Positions 32,531-59,730 of a DNA stretch of 64,000 nucleotides are shown here, in pieces. The DNA lies in the NCBI GenBank assembly GCA_963678705.1, contig OY783220.1:7709001-7773000 (forward strand). Direction: 5' to 3'. The position numbers were made by a program, and so were the translations under genes. Position 1 is the stretch's first letter. Every line of letters starts with the position of its first letter. The DNA comes from Panorpa germanica. Taxonomy: Eukaryota > Arthropoda > Insecta > Mecoptera > Panorpidae. Below the pieces are notes generated by a model, which searched no databases, had not been told where the DNA came from, and worked only from the letters and a program-made list of their open reading frames with translations.

Positions 32531-34193
32531 TTAAAAATTTGATAAAAAATCAATTTTTTGTTTTGACAAATAAAAAATGTATTCTAACGTACTTTTTTAT
32601 GCTGATTTTAAAAATGAAAATCAATTTTAAATATCCCTAATACTTACTATATTTAGAAACTAAAAAGAGAACAACTAATAAGAAATTTGCAGCCGTACTT
32701 AGTGCACCCCGTTTTATGAAATTCAAACTGCTGTTTTTATGAAATTAACAAGAGTATAACCTTTAAAAATTTGATAAAAAGTCAATTTTTTGTTTTGACA
32801 AATAATAGATGTATTCGAACGTAGTTTTTTATGCTGATTACAAAAATGAAATCCATTTTTAAATATCTCTATTATTTATGCCTAATCATGTCGATATCTC
32901 GAAAACCGGGACAACTAGAAAAAAACAATTTGCAGATTCGAAATCAGCGTAAAAAAGTACGTTAACAACCATTCTAAAATTAACAAAATCAAAAGTTGAA
33001 TTTTTAGGAAATTAACAAGAGTATAACCTTTAAAAATTTTATAAAAAATCAATTTTTTGTTTTGACAAATAAAAGATGTACTCGAACGTAGCTTTTTATG
33101 CTAATTACAAAAATGAAATCCATTTTTAAATATCTCTATTATTTATGCCTAAACATGTCAATATCTCGAAAACCGGGACACCTAGAAAAAAACAATTTGC
33201 AGATTTGAAATCATCGTAAAAAAGTACGTCAACAAACATTCTAAAATTAACAAAATCAATAGTTGAATTTTTAGGAAATTAACAAGAGTATAACCTTTAA
33301 AAATTTGATAAAAAATCAATTTTTTGTTTTGACAAATAAAACATGTATTCTAACGTACTTTTTTATGCTGATTTTAAAAATGAAAATCAATTTTAAATAT
33401 TACTAATACTTACTATATTTAGAAACTAAAAAGAGAACAACTAATAAGAAATTTGCAGCCGTACTTAGTGCACCCCGTTTTATGAAATTTAAACTGCTGT
33501 TTTTATGAAATTAACAAGAGTATAACCTTTAAAAATTTGATAAAAAGTCAATTTTTTGTTTTGACAAATAATAGATGTATTCGAACGTAGTTTTTTATGC
33601 TGATTACAAAAATGAAATCCATTTTTAAATATCTCTATTATTTATGCCTAAACATGTCAATATCTCGAAAACCGGGACACCTAGAAAAAAACAATTTGCA
33701 GATTTGAAATCAGCGTAAAAAAGTACGTTAACAACCATTCTAAAATTAACAAAATCAAAAGTTGAATTTTTAGGAAATTAACAAGAGTATAACCTTTAAA
33801 AATTTGATAAAAAATTAATTTTTTGTTTTGACAAATAAAACATGTATTCTAACGTACTTTTTTATGCTGATTTTAAAAATGAAAATCAATTTTAAATATT
33901 ACTAATACTTACTATATTTAGAAACTAAAAAGAGAACAACTAATAAGAAATTTGCAGCCGTACTTAGTGCACCCCGTTTTATAAAATTCAAACTGCTGTT
34001 TTTATGAAATTAACAAGAGTATAACCTTTAAAAATTTGATGAAAAGACAATTTTTTGTTTTGACAAATAATAGATGTATTCGAACGTAGTTTTTTATGCT
34101 GATTACAAAAATGAAATCCATTTTTAAATATCTCTACTATTTATGCCTAATCATGTCGATATCTCGAAAAACGGGACACCTAGAAAAAAACAA

Positions 34194-36489: not shown

Positions 36490-36862
36490 TTAAAGTTAAA
36501 AGGAAGAGATTATTATATGTTACATACAAATTTAAGTAAGAAAAGATGGTTTAGAAATGAGTCCCGCAAAATTATATCAACTATAATCAGAATCATTGTA
36601 AATCTCCAGCTCACTAATACAAAATTAATATTAAATTTGACGATAGATGTCAATGTGGTGAAGAATGAACTTTGGATCATATTATACTTGAATGGATAAA
36701 CTATAGTTTACAAAGATAAAAATTCAATAGTAAAATATTAGATGTGATTAAAACTTTTCCTGTTAATGCTAAATTTTTGTTAAGTGATTCAAAATTAATT
36801 AGTGTTTTAGTGTATTAATAAAAATCAAGGAAAATAAATAAATAAATAAAAAAAAGACTTCT
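36490..36862 (+). pseudogene. LINE-A 3' end fragment
   Basis: A 5'-truncated fragment of the same LINE as at 38300-38800 and 47640-48018. It begins at AAAGTTAAAAGGAAGAG and ends in an (AATA)n/poly-A-like tail (AATAAATAAATAAATAAAAA). The coding sequence is broken: ten bases present in the sister copies (AAAAGTAATC) are missing after AATCAGAATC, and the frame then stops. The match to the sister copy is close over most of its length. It is a dead retrotransposon insertion. Confidence 0.8.
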
Positions 36863-37915
36863 AAATGTTGTAAAAAATTAAAAAATTAATTTAAAAAAAA
36901 AACTGGACAGGGTTATGGACAGAAACTTATCAACTAATGAAATCATTTTGGTTTTTTGAATTCAGAAAATCCAGTGATGAGTTATGAGAAACACCGCAAT
37001 GAAGCTTTTTTATGACATCTGCGAAGATTTGCTGTCAATGCCTCATTTCTTGATATTTATTTATGAAAATTTCACAAAGTATTCTTTAAATGTTATTTTA
37101 TCACGTAGTAATTATAGAAATAATTATATATTAACTGTTATCAGTTTTATTTTAAAACGTTTTCAATTTCGTGAATCTTAATGGAACATCGTTTTTCTTA
37201 TACGAAATGAATTCTTGGATATGTTATTGATGTTACAAATATCTTTATCACTCTAAACCACTTTACAACATGGCGTATCGCCAATAATGACACATCTGTT
37301 ATCTAAAAATCTATTTACAATGTACAAACACATAGTTTTTAACAATTAAAACCTCATTTTAATTACTATTTTATTGCAGAAGCATTTACAGTCGTTCTAG
37401 ATAAAGCCATTAAACGTGGTTGTGTTTTGAAGCATGGCTAACGTAACGACTCTAACGTTTATCCCACTTGACACCATTGTCATAATTTGGTGTAATTTTG
37501 CGAAAGACTTTTGCGCACGTCGCACTAAAGTAAGAATAACTTGGTGAAAGGGAGAAATATCTCAATTCTCACCAACTGTCACAAAGTAACGACATCTGTT
37601 GTGCTGTCACAGCAACTGGTAATGAAACTATTATCCTTATCCTTCGTCTTAACGATTCATTAAATATTATTGCGAACCATCTGTCACTTAACTTTGATCT
37701 GTGAATTTATGTTTTGTAATTACTAAATCAATATAGCGCTTTAGTTAAAATGTTGGTGAATACATTGTCTAAAAATTATGTACTAGACCATGACCATGGG
37801 TCGGCTTACTTTATTAGACATTACCCTAAATTTAATTAGGTTCCACGAGTAAAGCTATTCTAATCCTAAACGACAAATTCAATTACATTTAGATTTACAA
37901 AATGTATAAATGATA
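36863..37915. other. Intergenic DNA, no feature recognised
   Basis: AT-rich unique-looking sequence. The short open frames here have no recognisable domain or gene-like signal. Confidence 0.5.
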
Positions 37916-38287
37916 TGATATTAACAATAAAATTCCAATATTATGTATGCCTTAGCAGGGTTAAATGAAATAAAAACTTATTATTCTTTGATGTGACTTG
38001 ATTATTTGACTACCAACAGCTACAAAACATTACCACAGCACTGACCTACTTAACAAATAACTCACGTTAAAATGCATTTCATGTCATACAAATATAGCTG
38101 ACCATTTCTAGCGCTAAAACTACAATTCAAATTTTTAATTGCTATATCTCCGTCAACATTTAGATATTTACATTTACAACATTTATAAAATAGACACGCC
38201 AATATACAGTTATTAACATTAATTTCAATCGACGATTGAAAAATCGACCACTAAAAAATGAGGACATAAGCCCATTCGTATGTATGG
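37916..38287 (+). mobile_element. R-element copy (internal part and one end)
   Basis: This segment is found again in reverse orientation at about 48020-48245 and 52450-52790. Shared landmarks are GCCTTAGCAGGGTTAAAT, ATTGCTATATCTCCGTCAA, AATAGACACGCCAATA and the terminal motif GAGGACATAAGCCCATT at about 38270. It is an old copy with many substitutions. The terminal motif is one end of the 16-bp inverted repeat described at 47552-48466. Confidence 0.7.
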
Positions 38288-38813
38288 ACTCCAGAATGTT
38301 TAATATAATCAAAAAATTAAACTTCAATTCGAGAAACCAAGATTTCATTAACAAAAGTCAGTTAAAAGGAAGAGATTATTATATATTTCATCCAAATTTA
38401 AGTAAGAAAAGATGGTTTAGAAATGAGTCCCGCAAAATTATATCAACTATAATCAGAATCAAAAGTAATCATTGTAAAACTCCAGCTCACCTGTACAAAA
38501 TTATTATTAAATCTGACGAGAGATGTCAAAGTGGTGAAGAAAGAACTTTGGATCATATTATACTTGAATGGATAAATTATAGTTTAAAAAGATCAAAATT
38601 GAATAGTGATATATTAGATGTGATTAAAACTTTTCCAGTTAATACTTAATTTTTGTTAAGTAGTTCAAAATTAATTAGTGAATTATTTAAATATTTAGAA
38701 ATTTGTAAAATTTAATTATAAATTATAAAAGATGTATAAAAAATGTTTGATGGTGGCTATGACGAAAGAAAGTCAAGGCAAATAAATTATTAAATATAAA
38801 AAAATAATAAAAT
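38236..38813 (+). pseudogene. LINE-A ORF2 C-terminal fragment with 3' UTR
   Basis: The open frame 38236-38649 (137 residues, beginning at TTG) encodes the C-terminal tail of a non-LTR retrotransposon ORF2. Its first residues are R-element sequence; LINE sequence proper starts near 38300. The tail normally carries a Cys-Cys-His-Cys knuckle. The sister copy at 47818-48057 keeps RCQCGEE and HIIFECIN, but here the second Cys is Ser (RCQSGEE) and the last is Trp (HIILEWIN), so the knuckle is destroyed. After the stop come about 160 bp of 3' UTR ending in AATAAATTATTAAATAT and an A/T-rich tail, then directly AATAGACACGCC of the R element, the same junction as at 47640. Confidence 0.8.
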
Positions 38814-38880
38814 AGACACGCCAATACACATTTATTAACATCAATTTCAATCAACACACAAGTGAGGACACAAGCCCATC
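38814..38880 (+). mobile_element. R-element terminal part
   Basis: AATAGACACGCCAATACACA through AGGACACAAGCCCAT (38865-38879). It directly continues the LINE-A tail, so this locus carries the same LINE-in-R composite as the F-box unit at 47.5-48.5 kb, next to a second partial R copy at 37916-38287. Confidence 0.7.
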
Positions 38881-43645: not shown

Positions 43646-44685
43646 GGGCCCTATTCCTGAATTTTGCGAGCAATGTTCGCAATCGAACAAATTCGATCGA
43701 AACGAGTACAGTAAGATTCGATCACAATTGTAAACACTATTCTTGAATGCAATCGAAACTAACATTATCCATTCGATTGAATACATTGTGTAGAACGTTT
43801 TGTAGACCAGCAAAATGCGGGAAATTTAAATTAATTTAAATATTTTTTGTAAGTTGGATATCATTATCTGGTTAAACTATTATTTCTACGGTTTTTCTGG
43901 ATTTTAAAAGAAGCATTTATCTTAGTATAGTACAAATTTAATATTGAATACAGAGTTTGCATAATAATTTATATATTCTCCTATTTATTAATTTTATAGA
44001 ACTTTCAATCATTTCACAATTAAATTTTAAAAATTATATGCATTAATAGAATATTAGAATACATTATATTTGTTAAATTACGATAGATTAAAAAACAGCA
44101 CTTATTTTAATAAGTATATTTAAGAATAAACACAATGTACTATTTCTAATTTTATTAATAAATAAACAGTATATTCTATTATAAATAATTAATAGATCTA
44201 ATTAAGTGTTTTGGCTACGTCTAGTTTCAGATTCTAATGGTTGTATTTTCTTTATAATTTAACTCCGTTTTTTCAAGCATAGCTAAATTATTTAAAGCCA
44301 TACTTCTTAGAGATGTCATTTTTAATAAATAAATATAAAGCGCAATAAAAAGTAATAGAAAAATTTTAGGTTAACTTCAACAAATATTTATTTTTTTGAC
44401 ATTTCAAAAAATAAAAAAATTGACATCAGAAAAATAGAACAAGCAACACTAATTTTACTAAATATTCTTGCCTGAAACAGTGATAACTAATAAAAATCAC
44501 TAAAATTTACTGTTCGATCGTAATCGCAAGCTAAATAGTCGACGTGCAAATGTTCACTTTTTTGCTCGATTTCTTTGCTCGTAAATTTTCGTAAAATTTT
44601 TAGAAATAGCACTTTTGAGTAAATCGAGTGATTTTTACGGAAAGAGGAAGAGTTTACGATTCGATTAAACTCAGGAATAGTGCCC
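43646..44685. mobile_element. TIR element, Harbinger-like ends (1040 bp), unit 1
   Basis: The left end GGGCCCTATTCCTGA (43646-43660) and the inverted right end TCAGGAATAGTGCCC (44671-44685) match at 14 of 15 positions. A 3-bp direct CAG lies on both sides (43643-43645, 44686-44688). GGGC..TATTC ends with 3-bp duplications recall PIF/Harbinger MITEs. Subterminal TTCGATCG motifs occur near both ends. Open frames inside (such as 44487-44711 minus) overlap the TIR and do not look like transposase. Units 2 and 3 keep the interior and the right end (49643, 54381) but not this left end. Confidence 0.7.
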
Positions 44686-44812
44686 CAGCATGTGAAATAT
44701 ATTAAATACAATAAGATTTGTCATCATATTCAAGATGCGTATGATTTGTTTGTCATGAAATAGTTAATTTACAGTTCAGTTTCTCACTTACCGGCTTGTC
44801 TACTTTATCGGC

Positions 44813-44819
44813 TATAAAT
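44813..44819 (+). promoter_or_regulatory. TATA box of F-box gene copy 1
   Basis: TATAAAT in the context TATCGGCTATAAATGGCG, about 150 bp before the splice donor of the 5' exon. The same context is conserved in units 2 (49771) and 3 (54509). The transcription start, expected about 30 bp downstream, is inferred. Confidence 0.6.
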
Positions 44820-44842
44820 GGCGAAACCACTCCACCTGTCGG

Positions 44843-44961
44843 AATGCAAACGAAAATAAAGTTGATGAGATCAGCATTAGTGATAGAACCGTCACTTTAC
44901 TAAATTGTTTACTGGGCAGCACTCACTACCAATTCAATTCAGGTGACTCCAGTTTACGAAG
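44843..44961 (+). other. 5' noncoding exon of F-box gene copy 1
   Basis: Start inferred from the TATA box. The end is set by the strong donor ACGAAG|GTATGTG. The intron runs 44962-45960 and closes with TTCTTCGTTTCTAG. The whole arrangement is preserved in all three units. A second possible donor, CAG|GTGACT, lies about 20 bp upstream. No long frame crosses the exon. Confidence 0.55.
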
Positions 44962-45741
44962 GTATGTGTTTTGTAATCATTTTTGTTATTAAGTAGTATT
45001 ATCATGAATTAGTGAACTGTGTTTTTAACATTAACTATAAGTATGTATAAAGAACTAATCAAACTCGTTACCGTGCTCTAAAAGTTGGAATTGTAAACGA
45101 GGAATTACCTTTTATTATTTAACAATAATCATTATTTGTTATTAAAATTATACCCTCTACTTCTTAAGTCACTGTTGAATAGAAAATATCATTGCGCTTA
45201 ATTCATTTTTGATCCTTATTATATCTAAACGATTTTACTACTTCCAAAAGAAATATATATATTTTGAAAAGAATATATTGTTTGACTTAACCTATGGTAG
45301 AAACATAACCTTACAAAACGGTAGTTTCATTGTTAATGTTATTTATTTTAATTTAAAAGTAATATTATGGTAAATATCTAGAATAAGTTAATTTTTTGTT
45401 TAAAAAATATTTAAACATCAATACGTATTATTTATTACACCACTTTCTATACATAAATAAACAATATTTCTGGTTTAAATTGAAATTTCAAATTTGAGGT
45501 TATTAATATTTGACATTTATTGGTTAATCTTAACAACAAAAATTGTTTATTTTTTCAAAGAGTGTGGTATATTGAATATTAGGAACTGATTTATACATCT
45601 TTTGACTTTATTAAAAGTGCAATTAGACAAAGAAAAGTGCAGTAGCTTTTTCACAACTCTCAAAACAAAATGTAGTTAATCTTTTGTAACTCTAGACAAG
45701 TGCCAAATCTGTTTTAAAACAAAATTGATATATCGCAACCA

Positions 45742-45743
<2 letters not shown>

Positions 45744-45823
<80 letters not shown>
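45744..45823. repeat. (TA)n microsatellite in intron 1, copy 1
   Basis: About 80 bp of TA dinucleotides with one interruption. The orthologous tract is only about 18 bp in unit 2 (50707-50724) and about 52 bp in unit 3 (55454-55505), so it is the main length difference between otherwise near-identical introns. Confidence 0.95.
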
Positions 45824-46037
45824 TTCTTTTATTAACACTTCACGGACTTCTTAGCCAAGGTTAATTTGTTTTGCAACTTTTTAACGTAGTTCACTTGTGA
45901 CAATGATATTGATACTTAATAATTTAGTCGTTAAATAATTAACGTTTTCTTCGTTTCTAGCTACACGAAGGTTTGTCAACGAATGCAGCGGAACTTTCAA
46001 TAAGTTTTCAGTTTAAATTTCGTGTTATTCTTCCATT

Positions 46038-46487
46038 ATGAATTTTCAAGATCTTCCATACCTCGTTATTAAGGAGGTACTATCAAATCTTCCACTATCG
46101 GACGTCTTGCAATTTGGAGAAGCCTTCCCTATGCATCACCAGGCTGTTCTTTCCCACTTCAGGTCATTGACTGTGATCAATGTAGATGAGATTACGTCAA
46201 GCACAGCTTCTTCATTCTTGAAATATTTACAAGAATGTGTTAATTTAAAGGAATTTAATTGGATAACAGAAAGAAAGGAAAGCCAGTTTAAGCAAATCCT
46301 ATTTATTGTTCAAAATACTTGTCCACGTTTAGAAGTTCTGAATATTCCTGGACTTCGACTGTCTATTGATGATATTCCCTATCTCCATGCATTCACGAAT
46401 CTAAGAAAAGTAAAAATTTTCTTCCCTCATTGCTTCGATTTACAAACATATATGATTCGAACCGGATGCTTGAGAGTGCGGCCGTAA
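46038..46487 (+). CDS. F-box/LRR-like protein, copy 1 (149 aa)
   Basis: Residues about 4-38 fit an F-box: LPYLVIKEVLSNLPLSDVL, with conserved LP, the hydrophobic I..VLS.LP spacing and the downstream aromatic/basic stretch. F-boxes bind Skp1 in SCF ubiquitin ligases (family knowledge). Residues about 60-128 contain two LRR-like stretches, FLKYLQECVNLKEF and CPRLEVLNIPGL, ending with NLRKVKIFFP, the part expected to bind substrate. The protein is much shorter than typical FBXL proteins. The start is the first ATG of exon 2, 77 bp after the acceptor at 45960. The tail PHCFDLQTYMIRTGCLRVRP is in a different frame from copy 3 because of a net 19-bp length difference. The stop lies inside a good splice-donor sequence (GCC|GTAAGA, 46484), so the message may continue to an exon at 47379. 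No expression evidence. Confidence 0.75.
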   Translation: MNFQDLPYLVIKEVLSNLPLSDVLQFGEAFPMHHQAVLSHFRSLTVINVDEITSSTASSFLKYLQECVNLKEFNWITERKESQFKQILFIVQNTCPRLEVLNIPGLRLSIDDIPYLHAFTNLRKVKIFFPHCFDLQTYMIRTGCLRVRP

Positions 46488-46511
46488 GACGCCTAACCGG
46501 GTTCCGAAGAA

Positions 46512-46517
46512 AATAAA
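46512..46517 (+). terminator. Polyadenylation signal AATAAA, copy 1
   Basis: AATAAA 25 bp after the stop, followed by AT-rich sequence. It is conserved in copy 2 (51411-51416) but altered to AATAAC in copy 3. Confidence 0.55.
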
Positions 46518-46825
46518 CATTTTTAATATTAATATTTTATCTAAGATTGTTTTATTCCATTTATAAATTAATCCCATTTTTAAATTCCCACTTAACTCTA
46601 AGCTATATAAGTAAGTTTTAGCATGTGAAATTTATATTAGATAAAGATAATGATTATTACTAAATATTGTTTATTACTGACGCATAACGCATGATTTCAC
46701 AATTTTAAAATTACATTTATTGTTAAAACCTTAAACTAAAACTAAAAACAGTGAGTGAGAATGAGCTTTATATACCAAAGCTAACTTTAAAAAACAAATT
46801 TTTATTTTTACGTATTGACTATACT

Positions 46826-47335
46826 TTCTAGCGTAGTTTTTTACGATGATTCCAAAATTGGAATTGGCATTAACTGCTGATATCTCGAAGACACCTATTT
46901 ATTAAAAAATAAATTATAGACTTGGAATCAGCATAAAAAGCTACGTTAAGAATGATTAAAAATTGAACAAATGAAAAATGTTATTTATTATAAAATTATC
47001 AAGGCCTATTTTACCTTTAAAATTTTCAATAAAAATATATTAATATTTTGACGAATTTTCGACGAGATATTTTCGAATTAATTTACGCCTGAGCATGCTG
47101 ATATCTCGAAGACACATATTAAAAAATAAATTACAGACTTGTAATCAGCATAAAAAACTACGTTAAGAGCTATTAAAAATTGAACAAAACAGATATATTT
47201 TTTTTTATTAAATTATCAAAGTTTATAATCTTCAAATTTTCAATAATAAAATAAGCACATATTTATTTTGATTTATTAAATATATTTTCTAGCGTAGTTT
47301 TTACGCTGATATCAAAATTCAACTCGTCAAACTCA
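46826..47335 (+). repeat. Diverged satellite-family dimer downstream of copy 1
   Basis: Two degenerate monomers in tandem. Landmarks recur about 217 bp apart: AATCAGCATAAAAA (46926 and 47143) followed by CTACGTTAAGA, each preceded by GCTGATATCTCGAAGACAC. These correspond to ATATCTCGAAAACCGGGACA and AATCAGCGTAAAAAAGTACG of the satellite B monomer, in the same order and orientation, with GTAGTTTTTTACGATGATT matching the first arm. Sequence identity is modest, so this is an old relative and not array spill-over. Confidence 0.75.
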
Positions 47336-47378
47336 TAACGAATAAATAAATACATAATTAAATGTTAACATGTTTTAG

Positions 47379-47529
47379 AAGGTTAGAAATAGAACTGGAG
47401 AAACTGTGTCAAATCTGTACAAATATTGAAAAGTTTCTAGCGCCCATTGCACTTATATTACGGCCAACACATCATCACAGATTACAGTGGTCATTTGGTC
47501 CAGCAGGACAACTCATTAATTTTTTGTAA
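47379..47529 (+). other. Candidate LRR-like terminal exon, unit 1
   Basis: Preceded by the acceptor ACATGTTTTAG (ending 47378). If joined to the donor at 46484 the phase fits (446 coding bases before the donor leave two bases, and this exon supplies the third). The 49-codon frame contains LEKLCQICTNIEKFLAPIAL, which resembles the LRR-like IVQNTCPRLEVLNIPGL of the upstream exon. The joined protein would be about 198 residues. Unit 2 fits the same way; unit 3 does not. The phase match has a one-in-three chance of being accidental. Confidence 0.35.
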
Positions 47530-47639
47530 AACTTATTTCTTAGTACGACAAAATGGGCTTGTGTCCTCATTTTTTAGTGGTCGCTTTTTCAATTGTTGAT
47601 TGAAATTGTTGTTAATAAATGTGTATTGGCGTGTCTATT

Positions 47640-48018
47640 TTATTATTTTTTTATATTTAATAATTTATTTGCCTTGACTTTCTTTCGTCATAGCCACCAT
47701 CAAACATTTTTTATACATCTTTTATAATTATATTTTATTTTTATAATTATATTTTATTTTACAAATTTCTAAATATTTCAATAATTCACTAATTAATTTT
47801 GAACCACTTAACAAAAATTAAGTATTAACTGGAAAAGTTTTAATCACATCTAATATATCACTATTCAATTTTGATCTTTCTAAACTATAATTTATGCATT
47901 CAAATATAATATGATCCAAAATTCCTTCTTCACCACATTGACATCTATAGTCAGATTTAATATTAATTTTGTACAGGTGAGCTGGAGTTTTGCAATGATT
48001 ACTTTTGATTCTGATTAT
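47640..48018 (-). pseudogene. LINE-A 3' fragment inserted in R element
   Basis: A minus-strand C-terminal ORF2 fragment: the frame at 47818-48057 reads RIKSNHCKTPAHLYK, then RCQCGEE and HIIFECIN with the Cys-Cys-His-Cys pattern intact, followed by a 3' UTR and an A/T-rich tail at 47640-47670. The last eight codon positions toward 48057 are R-element sequence. Unit 2 has the uninterrupted target (GTGTCTATTTTCTAAAATAT at 52529-52548), so the insertion is dated relative to the unit 1/2 relationship. Severely 5'-truncated. Confidence 0.85.
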
Positions 48019-48244
48019 AGTTTCTAAAATATCTAAATATTGACGGAGATATAGCAATTAAAAATTTAAATCGTAGTTTTAGCGCTAGAAATGGTCGGCC
48101 ATATTTGTATGATGTGAAATACATTTTAACGTCAATTATTTGTTGAGTAGGTCAGTGCTGTGGTAAGGTTTTGTAGCTGTTGGTAATCAAATAATTAAGT
48201 CAAGTCAAAGAATAATAAGTTTTTATTTTATTTAACCCTGCTAA

Positions 48245-48420
48245 GGCAGACATTATATTGAAAATTTATTGTTCCTTGAAATAGCTGTAAATAATTTTTG
48301 ATATATAAATACATATAACAGAGATTTATGAGCTGTAAGGTTGGCAGTGGTTGTGATGTCACATGCATTTGGAATATGTACAATTTGAGGTTCTAGTAAG
48401 CTACTTTATCAATATATACT
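48245..48420 (-). pseudogene. LINE-B RNase H-region relic, unit 1
   Basis: Homologous to the N-terminal half of the RNase H domain in the frame at 57459-58025 (minus): both carry the ATTATATTGAAAATTTATTG and TGAGCTGTAAGGTTGGCAG landmarks. Here the sequence switches to TGCCTTAGCAGGG where the longer copy continues into the SHKGIKGNE motif. It is non-functional. Confidence 0.65.
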
Positions 48421-48699: not shown

Positions 48700-49643
48700 T
48701 GTCACAATTGTAAACACTATTCCTGAATACGATCGAAACTAACATTCTCCATTCGATTGAATATATTGTGTAGAACGTTTTGTAGACCAGCAAAATGCGG
48801 GAAATTTAAATTAATTTAAATATTTTTTGTAAGTTGGATATGATTATCTGGTTAAACTATTATTTCTACGGTTTTTCTGGATTTTAAAAGAAGCATTTAT
48901 CTTAGTATAGTACAAATTTAATATTGAATACAGAGTTTGCATAATAATTTATATATTCTCCTATTTATTAATTTTATAGAACTTTTAATCATTTCACAAT
49001 TAAATTTTAAAAATTATATGCATTAATAGAATATTAGAATACATTATATTTGTTAAATTACGATAGATTAAAAAACAGCACTTATTTTAATAAGTATATT
49101 TAAGAATAAACACAATATACTATATCTAATTTTATTAATAAATAAACAGTATATTCTATTATAAATAATTAATAGATCTAATTAAGTGTTTTGGCTACGT
49201 CTAGTTTCTTTATAATTTAAGTCCGTTTTTTCAAGCATAGCTAAATTATTTAAAGCCATACTTCTTAGAGATGTCATTTTTAATAAATAAATATAAAGCG
49301 CAATAAAAAGTAATAGAAAAATTTTAGGTTAACTTCAACAAATATTTATTTTTTTGACATTTCAAAAAATAAAAAAATTGACATCAGAAAAATAGAACAA
49401 GCAACACTAATTTTACTAAATATTCTTGCCTGAAACAGTGATAACTAATAAAAATCACTAAAATTTACTGTTCGATCGTAATCGCAAGCTAAATAGTCGA
49501 CGTGCAAATGTTCACTTTTTTGCTCGATTTCTCTGCTCGTAAATTTTCGTAAAATTTTTAGAAATAGCACTTTTGAGTAAATCGAGTGATTTTTACGGAA
49601 AGAGGAAGAGTTTACGATTCGATTAAACTCAGGAATAGTGCCC
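48700..49643. mobile_element. Truncated Harbinger-like element, unit 2
   Basis: Same interior and right end (TCAGGAATAGTGCCC to 49643, then CAG) as the unit 1 element at 43646-44685, nearly identical in sequence, but the left TIR is missing. It shows an 18-20 bp internal deletion relative to unit 1 near 49205. Confidence 0.7.
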
Positions 49644-49770
49644 CAGCATGTGAAATATATTAAATACAATAAGATTTGTCATCATATTCAAGATGCGTAT
49701 GATTTGTTTGTCATGAAATAGTTAATTTACAGTTCAGTTTCTCACTTACCGGCTTGTCTACTTTATCGGC

Positions 49771-49777
49771 TATAAAT
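49771..49777 (+). promoter_or_regulatory. TATA box of F-box gene copy 2
   Basis: TATAAAT in the same conserved context as copy 1. The noncoding exon ends at 49919 (donor ACGAAG|GTATGTG) and the intron runs 49920-50859. Confidence 0.6.
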
Positions 49778-50706
49778 GGCGAAACCACTCCACCTGTCGG
49801 AATGCAAACGAAAATAAAGTTGATGAGATCAGCATTAGTGATAGAAGCGTCACTTTACTAAATTGTTTACTGGGGAGCACCCACTGCCAATTCAATTCAG
49901 GTGACTCCAGCTTACGAAGGTATGTGTTTTTTAATCATTTTTGTTATTAAGTAGTATTATCATGAATTAGTGAACTGTGTTTTTAACATTAACTATAAGT
50001 ATGTATAAAGAACTAATCAAACTCGTTACCGTGCTCTAAAAGTTGGAATTGTAAACGAGGAATTACCTTTTATTATTTAACAATAATCATTATTTGTTAT
50101 TAAAATTATACCCTCTACTTCTTAAGTCACTGTTGAATAGAAAATATCATTGCGCTTAATTCATTCAGGATCAAATCCTTATTATATCTAAACATTTTTA
50201 CTACTTCCAAAAGAAATATATATATTTTGAAAAGAATATATTGTTTGACTTAACCTATGGTAGAAACATAACCTTACAAAACAGTAGTTTCATTGTTAAT
50301 GTAATTTATTTTAGTTTAAAAGTAATATTATGGTAAATATCTAGAATAAGTTAATTTTTTGTTTTAAAAATATGTAGAAATCAATACGTAATATTTATTA
50401 TACCACTTTCTATACATAAATAAACAATATTTCTGGTTTAAATTTAAATTTCAAATTTGAGGTTATAAATATTTGACATTTATTGGTTAATCTTAACAAC
50501 AAAAATTGTCTATTTTTTCAAAGAGTGTGGTATATTGAATATTAGGAACTGATTTATACATCTTTTGACTTTATTAAAAGTGCAATTAGACAAAGAAAAG
50601 TGCAGTAGCTTTTTCACAACTCTCAAAACAAAATGTAGTTAATCTTTTGTAACTCTAGACAAGTGCCAAATCTGTTTTAAAACAAAATTGATATATCGCA
50701 ACCAAG

Positions 50707-50724
50707 ATATATATATATATATAT
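50707..50724. repeat. (TA)n microsatellite in intron 1, copy 2
   Basis: Only about 9 TA units here, against about 40 in copy 1 and 26 in copy 3. Confidence 0.9.
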
Positions 50725-50936
50725 TTTTTATTAATATTTCACGGGCTTCTTAGCCAAGGTAAATTTGTTTTGCAACTTTTTAACGTAGTTCACTTGTGAC
50801 AATGATATTGATACTTAATAATTTAGTCGTTAAATAATTAACGTTTTCTTCGTTTCTAGCTACACGAAGGTTTGTCAACGAATGCAGCGGAACTTTCAAT
50901 AAGTTTTCAGTTTAAATTTCGTGTTATTCTTCCATT

Positions 50937-51386
50937 ATGAATTTTCAAGATCTTCCATACCTCGTTATTAAGGAGGTACTATCAAATCTTCCACTATCGG
51001 ACGTCTTGCAATTTGGAGAAGCCTTCCCTATGCATCACCAGGCTGTTCTTTCCCACTTCAGGTCATTGACTGTGATCAATGTAGATGAGATTACGTCAAG
51101 CACAGCTTCTTCATTCTTGAAATATTTACAGGAATGTGTTAATTTAAAGGAATTTAATTGCATAACAGAAAGAGAAGAAAGCCAGTTTAAGCAAATTCTA
51201 TTTATTGTTAAAAATACTTGTCCAGGTTTAGAAGTTCTGAATATTCCTGGACTTGAACTGTCTATTGATGATATTCCCTATCTCCATGCATTCACGAATC
51301 TAAGAAAAGTAAAAATTTTCTTCCCTCATTGCTTCGATTTACAAACATATATGATTCGAACCGGATGCTTGAGAGTGCGGCCGTAA
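50937..51386 (+). CDS. F-box/LRR-like protein, copy 2 (149 aa)
   Basis: The product is identical to copy 1 for the first 64 codons, including every base of the F-box half. Nine base differences fall between codons 65 and 107 and give five amino-acid changes: W75C, K80E, Q92K, R97G and R107E, four of them altering charge. The same frame-shifted C-terminus (CFDLQTYMIRTGCLRVRP) and the same stop within GTAAGA are present. The start ATG is 77 bp after the acceptor at 50859. The likely role is a substrate-recognition subunit of an SCF ubiquitin ligase, inferred from the F-box only. An intact promoter, splice sites and AATAAA at 51411 argue that it could be expressed. Confidence 0.75.
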   Translation: MNFQDLPYLVIKEVLSNLPLSDVLQFGEAFPMHHQAVLSHFRSLTVINVDEITSSTASSFLKYLQECVNLKEFNCITEREESQFKQILFIVKNTCPGLEVLNIPGLELSIDDIPYLHAFTNLRKVKIFFPHCFDLQTYMIRTGCLRVRP

Positions 51387-51410
51387 GACGCCTAACCGGG
51401 TTCCGAAGAA

Positions 51411-51416
51411 AATAAA
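51411..51416 (+). terminator. Polyadenylation signal AATAAA, copy 2
   Basis: Same position relative to the stop as in copy 1. Confidence 0.55.
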
Positions 51417-51724
51417 CATTTTTAATATTAATATTTTATCTAAGATTGTTTTATTCCATTTATAAATTAATCCCATTTTTAAATTCCCACTTAACTCTAA
51501 GCTATATAAGTTAGTTTTAGCATGTGAAATTTATATTAGATAAAGATAATGATTATTACTAAATATTGTTTATTACTGACGCATAACGTATGATTTCACA
51601 ATTTCAAAATTACATTTATTGTTAAAACCTTAAACTAAAACTAAAAACAGTGAGTGAGAATGAGCTTTATATACCAAAGCTAACTTTAAAAAACAAATTT
51701 TTATTTTTACGTATTGACTATACT

Positions 51725-52215
51725 TTCTAGCGTAGTTTTTTACGATGATTCCAAAATTGGAATTGGCATTAACTGCTGATATCTCGAAGACACCTATTTA
51801 TTAAAAAATAAATTATAGACTTGGAATCAGCATAAAAAGCTACGTTAAGAATGATTAAAAATTGAACAAATGAAAAATGTTATTTATTATAAAATTATCA
51901 AGGCCTATTTTACCTTTAAAATTTTCAATAAAAATATATTAATATTTTGACGAATTTTCGACGAGATATTTTCGAATTAATTTACGCCTGAGCATGCTGA
52001 TATCTCGAAGACACATATTAAAAAATAAATTACAGACTTGTAATCAGCATAAAAAACTACGTTAAGAGCTATTAAAAATTGAACAAAACTGACATATTTT
52101 TTTTTATTAAATTATCAAAGTTTATAATCTTTAAATTTTCAATAATAAGCACATATTTATTTTGATTTATTAAATATATTTTCTAGCGTAGTTTTTACGC
52201 TGATATCAAAATTCA
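51725..52215 (+). repeat. Diverged satellite-family dimer downstream of copy 2
   Basis: Near-identical to 46826-47335 apart from a few substitutions and a deletion in the AATAATAAAATAAGC stretch. It was therefore duplicated with the gene. Confidence 0.75.
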
Positions 52216-52272
52216 AGTCGTCAAACTCATAATGAATAAATAAATACATAAATAAATGTTAACATGTTTTAG

Positions 52273-52441
52273 AAGGTTAGAAATAGAACTTGAGAAACTG
52301 TGTCAAATCTGTACAAATATTGAAAAGTTTCTAGCGCCCATTGCACTTATATTACGGCCAACAAATCATCACAGATTACAGTGTCATAGCATTTGGTTCA
52401 GCAGAACAACTCATTCATTTTTTGTAAAACTTATTTCTTAG
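52273..52441 (+). other. Candidate LRR-like terminal exon, unit 2
   Basis: Acceptor ATGTTTTAG ends at 52272. The frame again continues correctly from the donor at 51383 and contains LEKLCQICTNIEKFLAP. The tail differs from unit 1 after RPTNHHRLQ because of a short insertion, and the frame ends at 52441. Confidence 0.33.
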
Positions 52442-52449
52442 TACGACAA

Positions 52450-52850
52450 AATGGGCTTGTGTCCTCATTTTTTAGTGGTCGCTTTTTCAATTGTTGATTG
52501 AAATTGTTGTTAATAAATGTGTATTGGCGTGTCTATTTTCTAAAATATCTAAATATTGACGGAGATATAGCAATTAAAAATTTAAATCGTAGTTTTAGCG
52601 CTAGGATTGGTCGGCCATATTTGTATGACGTGAAATACATTTTAACGTCAGTTTTTTGTTGAGTAGGTCAGTGCTGTCGTAATGTTTTGTAGCTATTGGT
52701 AGTCAAATAATCAAGTAAAGTCAAAGAATAATAAGTTTATATTTCTTTTTACCCTGTTAAGGCAGACATAGTATTGAAATTTTATTGTTTCTTGAAATAG
52801 CTGTAAATAATATTTGATATTTTGATATATAACTACATATAGTAGAAATT
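52450..52850 (-). mobile_element. R-element copy without LINE-A, unit 2
   Basis: Starts with AATGGGCTTGTGTCCT (52450-52465) and runs through GTGTATTGGCGTGTCTATTT directly into CTAAAATATCTAAATATTG, the uninterrupted target of the LINE-A insertion in unit 1. It continues through CCCTGTTAAGGCAGAC into the short RNase H relic (to about 52850). The opposite terminus is missing, replaced by the TIR fragment at 52866. Confidence 0.75.
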
Positions 52851-53409: not shown

Positions 53410-54381
53410 GATTCGATCACAATTGTAAACACTATTCCTGAATACGATCGAAACTAACATTCTCCATTCGATTGAATATATTGTGTAGAACGTTTTGTAG
53501 ACCAGCAAAATGCGGGAAATTTAAATTAATTTAAATATTTTTTGTAAGTTGGATATCATTATCTGGTTAAACTATTATTTCTACGGTTTTTCTGGATTTT
53601 AAAAGAAGCATTTATCTTAGTATAGTACAAATTTAATATTGAATACAGAGTTTGCATAATAATTTATATATTCTCCTATTTATTAATTTTATAGAACTTT
53701 TAATCATTTCACAATTAAATTTTAAAAATTATATGCATTAATAGAATATTAGAATACATCATATTTGTTAAATTACGATAGATTAAAAAACAGCACTTAT
53801 TTTAATAAGTATATTTAAGAATAAACACAATATACTATTTCTAATTTTATTAATAAATAAACAGTATATTCTATTATAAATAATTAATAGATCTAATTAA
53901 GTGTTTTGGCTACGTCTAGTTTCTGATTCTAATGGTTGTATTTTCTTTATAATCTAACTCCGTTTTTTCAAGCGTAGCTAAATTATTTAAAGCCATACTT
54001 CTTAGAGATGTCATTTTTAATAAATAAATATAAAGCGCAATAAAAAGTAATAGAAAAATTTTAGGTTAACTTCAACAAATATTTATTTTTTTGACATTTC
54101 AAAAAATAAAAAAATTGACATCAGAAAATAGAACAAGCAACACTAATTTTACTAAATATTCTTGCCTGAAACAGTGATAACTAATAAAAATCACTAAAAT
54201 TTACTGTTCGATCGTACATTCGCAAGCTAAATAGTCGACGTGCAAATGTTCACTTTTTTGCTCGATTTCTCTGCTCGTAAATTTTCGTAAAATTTTTAGA
54301 AATAGCACTTTTGAGTAAATCGAGTGATTTTTACGGAAAGAGGAAGAGTTTACGATTCGATTAAACTCAGGAATAGTGCCC
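53410..54381. mobile_element. Truncated Harbinger-like element, unit 3
   Basis: Interior and right end of the 43646-44685 element, ending at 54381 and followed by CAG. It starts at GATTCGATCACAATTG and lacks the left TIR; upstream it is joined to GGCGCCTAAAACGACCATAT, sequence that occurs inverted in unit 2. Confidence 0.7.
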
Positions 54382-54508
54382 CAGCATGTGAAATATATTA
54401 AATACAATAAGATTTGTCATCATATTCAAGATGCGTATAATTTGTTTGTCATGAAATAGTTAATTTACAGTTCAGTTTCTCACTTACCGGCTTGTCTACT
54501 TTATCGGC

Positions 54509-54515
54509 TATAAAT
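54509..54515 (+). promoter_or_regulatory. TATA box of F-box gene copy 3
   Basis: TATAAAT in the conserved context. The noncoding exon ends at 54657 and the intron runs 54658-55640, with both splice sites identical to the other copies. Confidence 0.6.
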
Positions 54516-55451
54516 GGCGAAACCACTCCACCTGTCGGAATGCAAACGAAAATAAAGTTGATGAGATCAGCAATAGTGATAGAACCGTCACTTTACTAAA
54601 TTGTTTACTGGGGAGCACCCACTGCCAATTCAATTCAGGTGACTCCAGCTTACGAAGGTATGTGTTTTTTAATCATTTTTGTTATTAAATAGTATCATCA
54701 TGAATTAGTGAACTGTGTTTTTAACATTAACTATATGTATGTATAAAGAACTAATCAAACTCGTTACCGTGCTCTAAAAGTTGGAATTGTAAACGAGGAA
54801 TTACCTTTTATTACTTAACAATTATCATTATTTGTTATTAAAATTATACCCTCTACTTCTTAAGTCACTGTTGAATAGAAAATATCATTGCGCTTAATTC
54901 ATTTTTGATCCTTATTATATTTAAACGATTTTACTACTTCCAAAAGAAATATATATATATATAAATATATATATTGAAAAGAATATATTGTTTGACCTAA
55001 CCAATGGTAGAAACATAACCTTACAAAACGGTAGTTTCATTGGTAAAGTTATTTATTTTAGTTTAAAAGTAATATTATGGTAAATATCTAGAATAAGTTA
55101 AATTTTTGTTTTAAAAATATGTAGAAATCAATACGTAATATTTATTATACCACTTTCTATACATAAATAAACAATATTTCTGGTTTAAATTGAAATTTCA
55201 AATTTGAGGTTATAAATATTTGACATTTATTGGTAAATTTTAACAACAAAAATTGTTTATTTTTTCAAAGAGTGTGGTATGTTGAATATTAGGAACTGAT
55301 TTATACATCTTTTGACTTTATTAAAAGCGCAATTAGACATAGAAAAGTGCAGTAGTTTTTTCACAACTCTCAAAACAAAATATAGTTAATCTTTTGTAAC
55401 TCTAGACAAGTGCCAAATCTGTTTTAAAACAAAATTGATATATCGCAACCA

Positions 55452-55453
<2 letters not shown>

Positions 55454-55505
<52 letters not shown>
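55454..55505. repeat. (TA)n microsatellite in intron 1, copy 3
   Basis: About 26 TA units. A second short TATATA stretch at about 54950-54972 is specific to this copy. Confidence 0.9.
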
Positions 55506-55508
<3 letters not shown>

Positions 55509-55717
55509 TTATTAATACTTCACGGGCTTCTTAGCCAAGGTAAATTTGTTTTGCAACTTTTTAACGTAGTTCACTTGTGACAATGATATTGATACTTAAT
55601 AATTTAGTCGTTAAATAATTAACGTTTTCTTCGTTTCTAGCTACACGAAGGTTTGTCAACGAATGCAGAGGAACTTTCAATAAGTTTTCAGTTTAAATTT
55701 CGTGTTATTCTTTCATT

Positions 55718-56212
55718 ATGAATTTTCAAGATCTTCCATACTTCGTTATTAAGGAGGTACTATCAAATCTTCCACTATCGGACGTCTTGCAATTTGGAGA
55801 ACTCTTCCCTATTCATCACCAGGCTGTTCTTTCCCACTTCAGGTCATTGACTGTGATCAATGTAGATGAGATAACGTCAAGCACAGCTTCTTCATTCTTG
55901 AAATATTTACAGGAATGTGTTAATTTAAAGGAATTTAAATGCATAAAAGAAAGAAAAGAAAGCCAGTTTAGGCAAATCCTATTTATTGTTAAAAATACTT
56001 GTCCAGGTTTAGAAGTTCTGAATATTCCTGGACTTCATCTGTCTTTGGAAGATCTTCCCTCTCTCTATGCATTTATTAATCTAAGAGTAGTAAAAATTTG
56101 CTTCCCTTTTCAAAGTCTGCTTCACGTTAACTTCAGATCACAAAAATTATATGATTCGAACCCGAAGCTTGAAATAGTGGTCGTAAGACGCCTAACCGGG
56201 TTCCGAAGATAA
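55718..56212 (+). CDS. F-box/LRR-like protein, copy 3 (164 aa)
   Basis: Same F-box (LPYFVIKEVLSNLPLSDVL) with L9F, A29L and M32I relative to copies 1/2, and an LRR half that is clearly more diverged: KCIKERKESQFRQ, GLHLSLEDLPSLYAFINL, VVKICFPFQ. The C-terminus is 15 residues longer and in a different frame: a net 19 extra bases precede the shared GTAAGACGCCTAACC block, giving NPKLEIVVVRRLTGFRR. That reading continues an LRR-like pattern (NPKLEIV), so this may be the ancestral frame and copies 1/2 the shortened form. The start ATG is 77 bp after the acceptor at 55640. The AATAAA just after the stop in the other copies is AATAAC here. Confidence 0.75.
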   Translation: MNFQDLPYFVIKEVLSNLPLSDVLQFGELFPIHHQAVLSHFRSLTVINVDEITSSTASSFLKYLQECVNLKEFKCIKERKESQFRQILFIVKNTCPGLEVLNIPGLHLSLEDLPSLYAFINLRVVKICFPFQSLLHVNFRSQKLYDSNPKLEIVVVRRLTGFRR

Positions 56213-56338
56213 TAACCATTTTTAATATTCATATTTTATCTAAGATTGTTTTATTCCATTTATAAATTAATCCCATTTTTAAATTCCCACTTAAGTCTAA
56301 GTTATATAAGTAAGTTTCAGCATGTGAAATTTATATTA

Positions 56339-56344
56339 AATAAA
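56339..56344 (+). terminator. Possible substitute polyadenylation signal, copy 3
   Basis: AATAAA created by a copy-3-specific change (TTAAATAAAG where the other units have TTAGATAAAG), 127 bp after the stop. It could replace the lost proximal signal. Confidence 0.35.
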
Positions 56345-56459
56345 GATAATGATTATTACAAAATATTGTTTATTACTGACGTATAACGCATGAGATCACA
56401 ATTTCAAAATTACATTTATTGTTAAAACCTTAAACCAAAACTAAAATTTTTATTTTTAC

Positions 56460-56720
56460 GTGTTGAATATACTTTTAGCGTAGTTTTTTACGATGATTAC
56501 AAAATTGGAAACCATTAACTGCTGATATCTCGAAGACAAAAATAAATTACAGACTTGGAATCAACATAAAAAGCTACGTTAAGAATGATTAAAAATTAAA
56601 CAAATGAAAAATGTTATTTATTATAAAAGTATCAAGGCCTATTTTACCTTTAAAATTTTCAATAAAAATATATTAATATTTTGACGAATTTTCGACGAGA
56701 TATTTTCTAGCTACACTAAA
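56460..56720 (+). repeat. Diverged satellite-family relic, unit 3, first part
   Basis: Carries TAGCGTAGTTTTTTACGATG, CTGATATCTCGAAGACA and AATCAACATAAAAAGCTACG. It is shorter than the relics in units 1 and 2. Confidence 0.7.
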
Positions 56721-56814
56721 TTCAAAATTTAAATCGTCAAATTCAAATCTAATAAATAAATGTTAACATGTTAGGCTAGAAATAGAACTTGAGAAACTGT
56801 GTTAAACATTGAGA

Positions 56815-57085
56815 AAAGGGAACCTTTTCATCATTTTTACCAAGATTATAGTTTTCTTTCATTGCCGAAACTGAGAATATTATATTGCTATTAAAATCAT
56901 AAAAGTGAACCTTTTCATCATTTTTAACAAGATTATAGCCTTCTTTCATTGATGAGAATAATTAATCAATGAAATTAAGTTATTGGTGTTGCCATTAATT
57001 CAGGCGTATTATTTCTAAGTTTTTCATGTATTATATTTGGTTGAAGTTTAAATTTCAATAAGTCTAAGAATAAAAGAATGTTTTA
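56815..57085 (+). repeat. Dispersed repeat inserted in unit 3
   Basis: Matches 59516-59730 over about 200 bp (landmarks AACAAGATTATAGCCTTC and TTGGTGTTGCCATTAATTCA). A piece of about 45 bp beginning GAACCTTTTCATCATTTTT is duplicated at 56820 and 56908. It splits the satellite relic of unit 3, so it arrived after the relic. Family not recognised. Confidence 0.7.
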
Positions 57086-57154
57086 TTTATATAATACAAA
57101 CAATTCATGTCTAATACAAGGTTATTAAAGTGCACATATTCCAGTAACATAATA

Positions 57155-57335
57155 ATTTACGCTTGAGCATGCTGATATCTCGAAGACAAACAAAACAGAC
57201 ATATTTTTTTTTATTAAATTATCAAAGTTTATAATCTTCAAATTTTCAATAATAAAATAAGCACATATTTATTTTGATTTATTAAATATATTTTCTAGCG
57301 TAGTTTTTACGCTGATATCAAAATTCAACTCGTCA
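57155..57335 (+). repeat. Diverged satellite-family relic, unit 3, second part
   Basis: ACGCTTGAGCATGCTGATAT, CTCGAAGACA and AGCGTAGTTTTTACGCTGAT continue the relic after the insertion, with part of the monomer deleted. AGCGTA-GTTTT-TACGCT is itself a perfect 6-bp-stem hairpin. Confidence 0.7.
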
Positions 57336-57384
57336 AACTCATAACGAATAAATAAATACATAATTAAATGTTAACATGTTTTAG

Positions 57385-57500
57385 AAGATTAGAAATAGAA
57401 CTGGAGAAACTGTGTCAAATCTGTACAAATATTGAAAACTTTCTAGCGCCCATTGCACTTATATTACGGCCAACACATCATCACAGATTACAGTGGTCAT
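57385..57500 (+). pseudogene. LRR-like exon counterpart, unit 3 (out of frame)
   Basis: Homologous to 47379-47529, with one R-to-K-type change near its start and N for K in TNIENF. The donor of copy 3 is in phase 0, so joining would hit a stop after about 16 codons. The sequence runs into LINE-B after GGTCCAGCAGGAC. Probably not used. Confidence 0.4.
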
Positions 57501-57513
57501 TTGGTCCAGCAGG

Positions 57514-58085
57514 ACCAATAAAAGAATGTGGTCAGGGTCTGCCTCTTCTTCACCACATTCGCATTTAGAGTTTGGAATGATTTTGTTTCTTGCTAGATGT
57601 TTCGGAGCTCCATGATTCATTCTCAGTCTTGTGGTCATTGTAATTAATCTTCTTGGCCATTTTAGTTTGGTAAACCATGGCTTACGTCTCAGTATTGGTT
57701 GTATTGTATAAAATTCTCTACCTTTATCAGAATTATCCCACTTGTCTTGCCAATTTTTCATTTCATTTTTATCTAATTTTGCTTTCATGTCTGATTTTAT
57801 AAAAAATGAAATATATTTATCACAGGAAGTAGCTACCTTGGCCATTTGATCAGCTTTTTCATTTCCCTTAATTCCCTTATGTGACGAGACATTATATTGA
57901 AAATTTATTGTTCCTTGAAATAGCTGTAAATAATTTTTGATATATAAATACATATAACAGAGATTAATGAGCTGTAAGGTTGGCAGCGCTTGTAATGTCA
58001 CATGCATTTGGAATGTGTACAACATTTGAAGTTCTAGTAACCCACTTTATCAATATATAGTACAGTTTTATAGAAATTAAGACAT
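57514..58085 (-). pseudogene. LINE-B ORF2 fragment: RNase H and C-terminal knuckle
   Basis: The minus-strand frame 57459-58025 (188 residues) holds a partial RNase H domain (NYLQLFQGTINFQYNV, SSHKGIKGNEKADQMAK; the GNEKAD motif contains a catalytic Asp) and then a C-terminal region with RRLITMTTRLRMNHG and KCECGEEEADPDHIL, the start of a Cys-Cys-His-Cys knuckle. Such RNase H-bearing non-LTR elements belong to the I/R1/LOA-like assemblage. There is no reverse transcriptase upstream, and the last 20 or so residues run out of the element into unit sequence, so it is a dead fragment. It ends near the terminus AGGACACAAGCCCATT (58086-58101), which is shared with the R element. Confidence 0.85.
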
Positions 58086-58101: not shown

Positions 58102-59175
58102 GAAAAAAATATTATGGACTTTAAACATTAAAAAGACCTTTCAAGAAATAAAGGACTCTAATTACGAGGTAACTTTCGAATAGTCATTTTATATTTTATA
58201 GCACATCTAGGTCGGTTCTTTTCGGTGTCGGAAGATTAGAAAAGGACCTACATAGTCATGCGATTGCAATCGGGCGTAGTTTCTTCCAGAGTATGAGCTA
58301 CCTTATAATACATCACGGGTAGTACTTTGACGTTCAAGTGCAACTATCAAACATCCGTGAAGTCGTACTCCTTGGAGTAATACACTAATGCATGCACCAC
58401 AACTTCAAATTATATTCCTTTTCTTTTATATATTATTTCTTGGGCTTCCTAGGCACGTAGCCTTTTATCGCCTCTAATATTGCTCTGCTTCTTCTTATAC
58501 CTTATATCCTGTCAACAGAAATGATCTATTCATGGCTACTGCTGTTATAAATTTCGGTTTCGCAATTAAAAAGGCGGTGTTAACAGGAAGCATCTAACTT
58601 CAAGGTAAATATTTATTTCTTAGTCTATTTTTTGCTGTTTTTGTAATTGTTATGCACAGTTTGACAGTTTCTCTGTCTCTCTCTATCTCTCTTTGTTGAC
58701 GAACAAGAAATTGACGTACAAATACATACAAACAAAGTGTTGCTAATGACATTCCTCTTCATAGGGATGATACCACCCTTTCAAACGCACCCCCTGAACG
58801 TTCTGCAACAGCCTCAACTCCTGGGGTAGCTTGTCTCGTCTTGCGTCTTCTACGTGAGCTGAAAACAGCCCTTATCCATCGCTGCACAACCCTTAATATC
58901 CACAAAAGAACGTGTAGCGGAGGGTTGGCGTGAAGCTTCAACGCGAAATAACAATGTAGGGTGGCGTAGGATACTATTTGGTACTAGATATTGTTCCTTC
59001 TTTAAAGTCACGTGATTTGGAGAAGATGGGGTTGAAATTAAGATGTACCCAAGTGGTTAATACTACTTTTAACCGTAAATTGTTGCATAATGATAAATAA
59101 TAATTCAGTTTGAATTGTCATCGGTTTGAGTCCTGACTACATTAATGTAAGGAGCAATCAGGAGCAGTTATATTC
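58102..59175. other. Intergenic DNA, no gene recognised
   Basis: Less AT-rich at 58750-58930, where a 60-residue minus-strand frame (58759-58941) is Arg-rich and without a recognisable domain. I do not call it. Confidence 0.45.
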
Positions 59176-59485
59176 GTTATGCTTTAAAATAAAGAACTGC
59201 TTTATTACTTTTTAAATACCTATGCGATTCTGGCTTTTATGCGACCTTTTTTTATTTTCATGGACATTTTTGTCAAAAAGAAAAAATGCATTTTCTTGAA
59301 GTTTTTTGATGCAATTATGTTTGTTATGCTTTAAAATAAAGTACTGCTTTATTACTTTTTAAATACCTATGCGATTCTGGCTTTTATGCGACCTTTTTTA
59401 TGTTCATGGACATTTTTTTCCAAATGAAAAAATTACATTTTCTTGCAATTTCTTGATGCAGTTATGTTGTTATACTTTAAAATAA
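59176..59485 (+). repeat. 147-bp tandem duplication (2.1 copies)
   Basis: GTTATGCTTTAAAATAAAG starts at 59176 and again at 59323, with a third partial start (GTTATACTTTAAAATAAA) at 59469. Copies share TGCGATTCTGGCTTTTATGC and differ by a few bases. Non-coding. Confidence 0.9.
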
Positions 59486-59515
59486 ATATTTACGCAGAAA
59501 ATCAGAAAATTGCAT

Positions 59516-59730
59516 TGCTCTTAATATCATAAAAGTGAACCATTTCATCATTTTTAACAAGATTATAGCCTTCTTTCATTGTAGAAACTGAGAACAATAA
59601 ATTAATAAAATTAAATAAAATTAAGTTATTGGTGTTGCCATTAATTCAGGAGTATTATTTCTAAGTTTTTCAATGTATTATATTTGGTTGAAGTTTAAAT
59701 ATCAATAAATAAAAATAAAAGAATGCAGTT
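59516..59730 (+). repeat. Dispersed repeat, second copy
   Basis: Close relative of 56880-57085. It directly follows the 147-bp duplication, which may be part of the same larger element. Confidence 0.7.

Follow-up and report, generated by a model that had tools for sequence, protein, structure and literature searches.

Introduction

DINE-TR1 of Drosophila has been a source of satellites, and canonical Helitrons are recognized by a 5′ end of TC after a host A, a 3′ hairpin about 10–12 bases before CTRR, insertion before a host T without a target-site duplication, and, for non-autonomous members, an autonomous Rep/helicase partner that shares the end. Passages of PMC7492417 describe the Cg_HINE elements of the Pacific oyster as non-autonomous rolling-circle transposons that disperse short tandem arrays resembling satellites; some of their monomers form classical satellite arrays as well, and related ends may carry unrelated repeats. 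DINE-1 of Drosophila is described in part of PMC4067079 as a group of non-autonomous rolling-circle elements, some with tandem repeats. For the plant centromeric Helitron arrays of Xiong et al. (2016), a passage of PMC12628747 explains the long tandem arrays by rolling-circle amplification.

In this study, we analyzed a stretch of 64,000 nucleotides from Panorpa germanica (hereafter the window; G+C 27%), which holds a satellite array and, beside three copies of an F-box-like gene, short relics related to it. As portrayed in passages of PMC7492417, Cg_HINE appears similar to the Panorpa family in combining tandem arrays tied to non-autonomous rolling-circle elements with classical arrays. In contrast, the same passages describe Cg_HINE as Helentron-type, inserting at TT and bearing subterminal inverted repeats on either side, whereas the one end found here is of the canonical type (hairpin, CTAG, host T); additionally, the monomers measure 217–280 bp here and 140–180 bp in Cg_HINE. 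DINE-1, by its description in part of PMC4067079, resembles the Panorpa family as a group of non-autonomous rolling-circle elements, some with tandem repeats, and differs from it in its Helentron ends. The same holds for DINE-TR1. In the plant arrays, as summarized in a passage of PMC12628747, truncated Helitrons stand in tandem, whereas here an internal monomer is repeated and a search of the window array found no Helitron end. The history judged most likely, Helitron-like spread with amplification at several places, resembles that of the satellite-carrying Helentrons of oyster and Drosophila. A title-level literature search, made without the species name, found no title naming this satellite. 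Because one genome holds the family's dispersed copies, gene-side relics, and young arrays, the order from transposon to satellite becomes testable by sequence.

Relatives of the satellite array in the window

The array and its relatives are listed below; the bit scores are those of a profile of dispersed monomers, and the units are the copies of the F-box-like segment.

1–34193, + strand: young satellite array whose 499-bp higher-order unit consists of two monomers, A (232 bp) and B (267 bp)
46788–47322, + strand: relic dimer of unit 1, with monomers at 46881–47035 and 47103–47268; 86–92 bits; blastn to the array E 3e-43
51687–52216, + strand: relic dimer of unit 2, a duplicate of that in unit 1; 86–92 bits; second monomer 98% identical to that of unit 1, units 97–98%
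56422–56788, + strand: relic of unit 3, first piece; 77.9 bits; 96% to monomer 1 of unit 1
57143–57331, + strand: relic of unit 3, second piece; 20.2 bits; 57189–57515 is 99% identical to 47183–47509
61630–61966, + strand: separate single copy with no tie to the F-box units; 24.3 bits; blastn to the array E 1e-24

TRF reports the array at 575–34193 with a period of 499 and 66.8 copies, and profile matches begin at base 7. Its monomers are nearly uniform (identity 0.975 among 11 sampled), and a 32-base tag of the A unit has 659 exact copies in the genome (control 0), of which the window contains 63. Within the first 100 places of the listing, tags on contigs C3 and C4 also stand at 499-bp steps. 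Long, homogeneous, arranged head-to-tail, and present in many genome copies, the array is satellite DNA.

To the right of the array, the core landmark ATATCTCGAAGACAC occurs with at most two mismatches at six sites (46880, 47101, 51779, 52000, 56525, and 57175), compared with 0.06 expected, and six or more sites were reached in none of 100 shuffles. The dispersed profile was built from 58 monomers, all from outside the window; the first seed for recruiting them was a window relic, 12 come from an array on contig C2, and some come from overlapping loci, so their independence is incomplete. A second profile was built from 11 array monomers of the window, with the same 29.8 kb in 100 dinucleotide-shuffled versions as background. 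The best shuffle reached 8.8 bits with the dispersed profile, while the relics score 20.2–92 bits, and with the array profile the relics of the F-box units score 27–32 bits, compared with 6.1 in shuffles. For the copy at 61.6 kb, the array profile gives only 9.9 and 7.2 bits against the same 6.1; its kinship is based on the dispersed profile and blastn, with hardly any contribution from the array profile. Since they beat the shuffles, the relics are true relatives of the array at all of these places (46.8, 51.7, 56.4/57.2, and 61.6 kb). The original prediction of satellite relatives downstream of all three F-box copies is therefore borne out, but these are copies of one insertion. A set of three landmarks had also been predicted at 61795; the relative is there, and only landmarks 1 and 2 were recognized in it, by eye. 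The predicted spacing of about 217 bp between paired landmarks proved inexact, as the core motif measures 221 bp from copy to copy and 650 bp in unit 3, where another dispersed repeat (56864–57080, 84% like 59494–59725) lies between the two motif copies.

Landmarks 1 and 3 each form one arm of a single imperfect inverted repeat that encloses landmark 2. In units 1, 2, and 3, the arms match at 23, 23, and 22 of 27 bases, respectively, as the best of 169 sliding placements, and in the B monomer of the array they match at 24 of 27; the best of 20,000 random pairs, compared without sliding, matched at 18. A general repeat search of the relic did not report the inverted arms, which were revealed by direct comparison with sliding.

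Duplication of the F-box-like segment

The genes and the segments that carry them are as follows.

46038–46487, + strand: F-box-like ORF 1, 149 aa; PF00646 17.0 bits, below the Pfam cut-off of 20.5
50937–51386, + strand: F-box-like ORF 2, 149 aa; PF00646 16.9 bits, below the Pfam cut-off of 20.5
55718–56212, + strand: F-box-like ORF 3, 164 aa; PF00646 15.3 bits, below the Pfam cut-off of 20.5
43715–47641, + strand: duplicated segment, unit 1, aligned part; 43722–45761 and 45805–47641 are 97–98% identical to 48702–52539, and 43715–47074 is 93% identical to 53410–56707
48702–52539, + strand: duplicated segment, unit 2, aligned part, from self-comparison
53410–57515, + strand: duplicated segment, unit 3, with a rearrangement beyond 56.8 kb, from self-comparison

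Self-comparison of the window reveals a segment of ~4.9 kb in three tandem copies, of which unit 3 is 92–93% identical to units 1 and 2. Because the F-box units are one segment duplicated in tandem, six of the seven core-motif copies trace to one insertion. The monomer tree contains four relic rows; the first monomer of unit 2 is absent from it (as identical to that of unit 1 or otherwise), and the second piece of unit 3 is too short. In this tree, the two monomers of unit 1 have their partners in other units, monomer 1 in unit 3 (100/98) and monomer 2 in unit 2 (100/100), and this pairing across units indicates that the dimer was already present before the duplications. Furthermore, when the DNA of the F-box gene was used as a genome query, all three candidates were the window copies, and no other copy was found at the DNA level. 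Judged from these alignments, the relic accompanies the F-box genes because their segment was duplicated. Repeats common to tandem gene copies may, as a general warning, reflect only the duplication of a whole segment.

Two further repeats lie in the window. One is a dispersed repeat at 36494–38856 and 47594–48327 (81–92% identical, in opposite orientations), with pieces near 52.5–52.8 and 57.9–58.1 kb, and the other is a 147-bp tandem repeat of 2.2 copies at 59164–59486.

Dispersion of the family over the genome

The genome searched comprises 464 Mb in 249 contigs, and the window spans bases 7709001–7773000 of C17, a contig of 14.1 Mb. The 14-base core GCTGATATCTCGAA occurs in it at 176 sites (reversed control 0), seven of them inside the window, and the core 17-mer occurs at 129 sites (control 0). 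With the relic as query, 122 matches were obtained from 40 scored of 714 candidates; they lie on at least 18 contigs, 117 outside the window and 5 inside it. For 29 of 30 selected loci, a bounded block is common to at least 12 other sequences, and outside arrays the block measures ~130 to 900 bases; L008 and the 61.6-kb copy of the window fall below this sharing threshold. The flanks of some loci contain other repeats common to a few loci, and the dispersed blocks start and stop at variable phases of the monomer.

The relic family is scattered over the whole genome, without special link to the F-box genes of the window. The original prediction had itself named such scatter as evidence against a tie to these genes, and for this one gene, with a DNA-level query and 176 genome-wide sites of the motif, the scatter is what was found. 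Its claim of a common orientation with the array is correct inside the window, where it rests on two independent insertions, and does not extend to the genome, where 86 core sites are forward and 90 reverse. Similarly, a dispersed and an amplified phase both exist as proposed (mean identity 0.74 among the 58 sampled dispersed monomers, compared with 0.975 in the array), but they are not confined to this chromosome stretch, as the dispersed copies occupy at least 18 contigs and the array is also on C3 and C4.

A part specific to the A monomer (33421–33505 in the window) has relatives, 71–76% identical, in the dispersed-copy loci L033, L034, L039, and L072; both halves of the higher-order unit thus have dispersed relatives. 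A second form of array, with ~278-bp steps, lies at C2:28046000–28096000 (L010–L019) in two blocks ~45 kb apart, ~1 Mb from the contig end.

A Helitron-type end on dispersed copies

In a search for a carrier, the flanks of nine hand-picked dispersed copies were aligned. Eight of these nine loci contain a non-repeat end module or at least the inner part of it, and four of the eight (L030, L040, L043, and L052) contain its hairpin. In element orientation, the module ends with GAATTCAAATCATCTACACAAAACAGAC, the hairpin GTCGCTTAGCGAC, the ten bases GGGGTAAACT, and CTAG, followed by a host T. These dispersed copies therefore carry two marks of canonical Helitrons, namely, a 3′ hairpin before CTAG and insertion directly before a host T. 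The module was at first considered Helentron-like, after the published satellite-carrying Helentrons; the CTAG|T boundary speaks against this idea and points to a canonical Helitron.

When one such module was used as a query, 40 of 1,337 candidates were scored and yielded 41 matches, and 30 loci were fetched. Monomers adjoin the module in 26 of these 30 (25 of the 29 scanned, with L058 counted in addition as identical in position to L043), a count biased by the 166-base module query, which itself contained monomer-like sequence. The end is recognizable with at most four errors in 27 of the 30 loci, with an exact CTAG in 15 and a host T next in 21 of those 27. Additionally, the 18-base end with at most one mismatch has 186 copies in the genome (control 0), and a host T comes next in 19 of 20 exact-end copies, which were taken by hand from those listed and include two duplicates of each other. 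In the window, array included, the Helitron end has no match at up to three mismatches. A fuzzy anchor search found no common 5′ end (TC after A), and the far borders of the blocks lie at variable phases.

By profile, the monomer is present in the ~600 bases of none of the 20 exact-end copies; lenient BLAST against monomers picks up short stretches of similarity (best E 4e-9), most of them in the last ~110 bases, and many of these copies have another interior in common. From this pattern, the elements with monomers appear to be a single older subfamily within a larger family. The loci L088–L107 represent a monomer-free Helitron subfamily, often with the hairpin GTCGCTTGCGAC or GTCGCTTTGCGAC, whose last ~110 bases are common with the monomer-bearing subfamily.

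Proposed history and alternative explanations

In our interpretation, the relics are probably remnants of old non-autonomous Helitron-like elements, by which the monomer would have been spread before it was amplified into arrays. They would be fossil copies of short, non-autonomous rolling-circle transposons of Helitron-like type, which form a genome-wide family and have an interior of head-to-tail monomers of ~217–280 bp, each with an imperfect inverted repeat around ATATCTCGAAAAC. A dimer fragment without a Helitron end would have inserted beside a single F-box-like gene, and the tandem duplication of the ~4.9-kb segment then placed a relic after every gene copy. Another copy of the family would have inserted at 61.6 kb, and family monomers would have been amplified into long arrays, among them the 499-bp A+B array of the window. 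Helitron transposition would account for the spreading, and the arrays may have formed from element-borne repeats via rolling-circle replication or unequal exchange. As the window contains no end module, the Helitron origin of its relics depends on their kinship with capped copies, from which we infer that they too once bore a Helitron end.

The original prediction had raised the possibility that the satellite was seeded from the F-box neighborhood or regulates it. A window array grown from the neighboring relics, or relics that are fragments of the local array, would agree with the position of both within 64 kb in the same orientation; moreover, forcing relics and array into one clade costs 10.5 log units without rejection (AU p 0.31). 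Such local seeding is nevertheless very improbable, as the relic monomers reach a best identity of 0.82–0.86 to dispersed copies, compared with 0.68–0.73 to sampled array monomers, and each relic has 41–45 of the 58 dispersed monomers closer to it than its best array monomer. The phylogeny that the prediction had proposed gives the same picture in its best tree, with 36 of its 70 inner branches open and a bootstrap short of convergence: the relics and the array fall on different sides, the relics are nested among dispersed copies, and the array forms its own clade (100/99), weakly placed beside the C2 array (82/71). Furthermore, 596 of the 659 A-unit tags lie elsewhere in the genome, at 499-bp spacing where listed. 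A regulatory role, in which the relics would be kept because they act on the F-box-like genes, whether as enhancer, as 3′ UTR element, or as small-RNA target, could draw on the relic downstream of all three gene copies and is extremely unlikely, since this presence follows from the duplication of one segment; no other result supports it. The relic of unit 3 is split by another repeat, and the distance from the ORF to the start of the relic is ~300 bp in units 1 and 2 and ~210 bp in unit 3, with a polyadenylation-type signal ahead of the relic in each unit (46512, 51411, and 56335). The position of these signals suggests that the relics of the F-box units lie outside the mRNA.

Dispersal might also have proceeded without a transposon carrier, through extrachromosomal circles or gene conversion, in which case the ends would come from Helitrons that had either captured monomers or inserted next to them. 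The variable phases at block starts and ends, the window relics without a Helitron end, and the missing monomer in the 20 exact-end copies fit this explanation, as does the end itself, whose unique part is adjacent in 5 of 30 relic-selected loci by BLAST, the stricter count, which includes the query's own locus. In contrast, the same end module joins monomers at loci on several contigs, and monomers adjoin 26 of the 30 module loci, with the query bias stated above; we therefore regard carrier-free dispersal as rather unlikely. Under the preferred explanation of spread by Helitron-like elements, a bolder extension may be offered tentatively, although it is doubtful: canonical Helitrons of one lineage, in which the 3′ end is fixed and the interior is made of self-inverted monomers, could have served as a satellite nursery more than once. 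The 499-bp A+B array, on several chromosomes, and the ~278-bp C2 array would then have arisen separately from element-borne monomers, possibly by rolling-circle replication with a variable-phase start and a stop at the cap. In the tree, these two array forms stand side by side with weak support (82/71).

Helitron Rep genes in the genome

Helitron Rep genes are present in this genome, as all 150 scored matches to PF14214, from 893 candidates, exceed the cut-off. Among the Rep matches and exact end sites listed, which were compared by eye, none of the scored matches was seen at 10 kb or less from an end site. In one Rep-bearing copy, the 3′ region, read by eye, has an apparently different hairpin, followed by GGGTCAG, CTAG, and T. 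The end of this single autonomous copy thus appears to have the same architecture with another sequence, and a matching partner of the dispersed elements was not identified. Rep matches are very numerous on C1, C2, C5, and other contigs, and many lie in open frames of 1119 aa on different contigs; the identical length of so many frames suggests recent Helitron activity.
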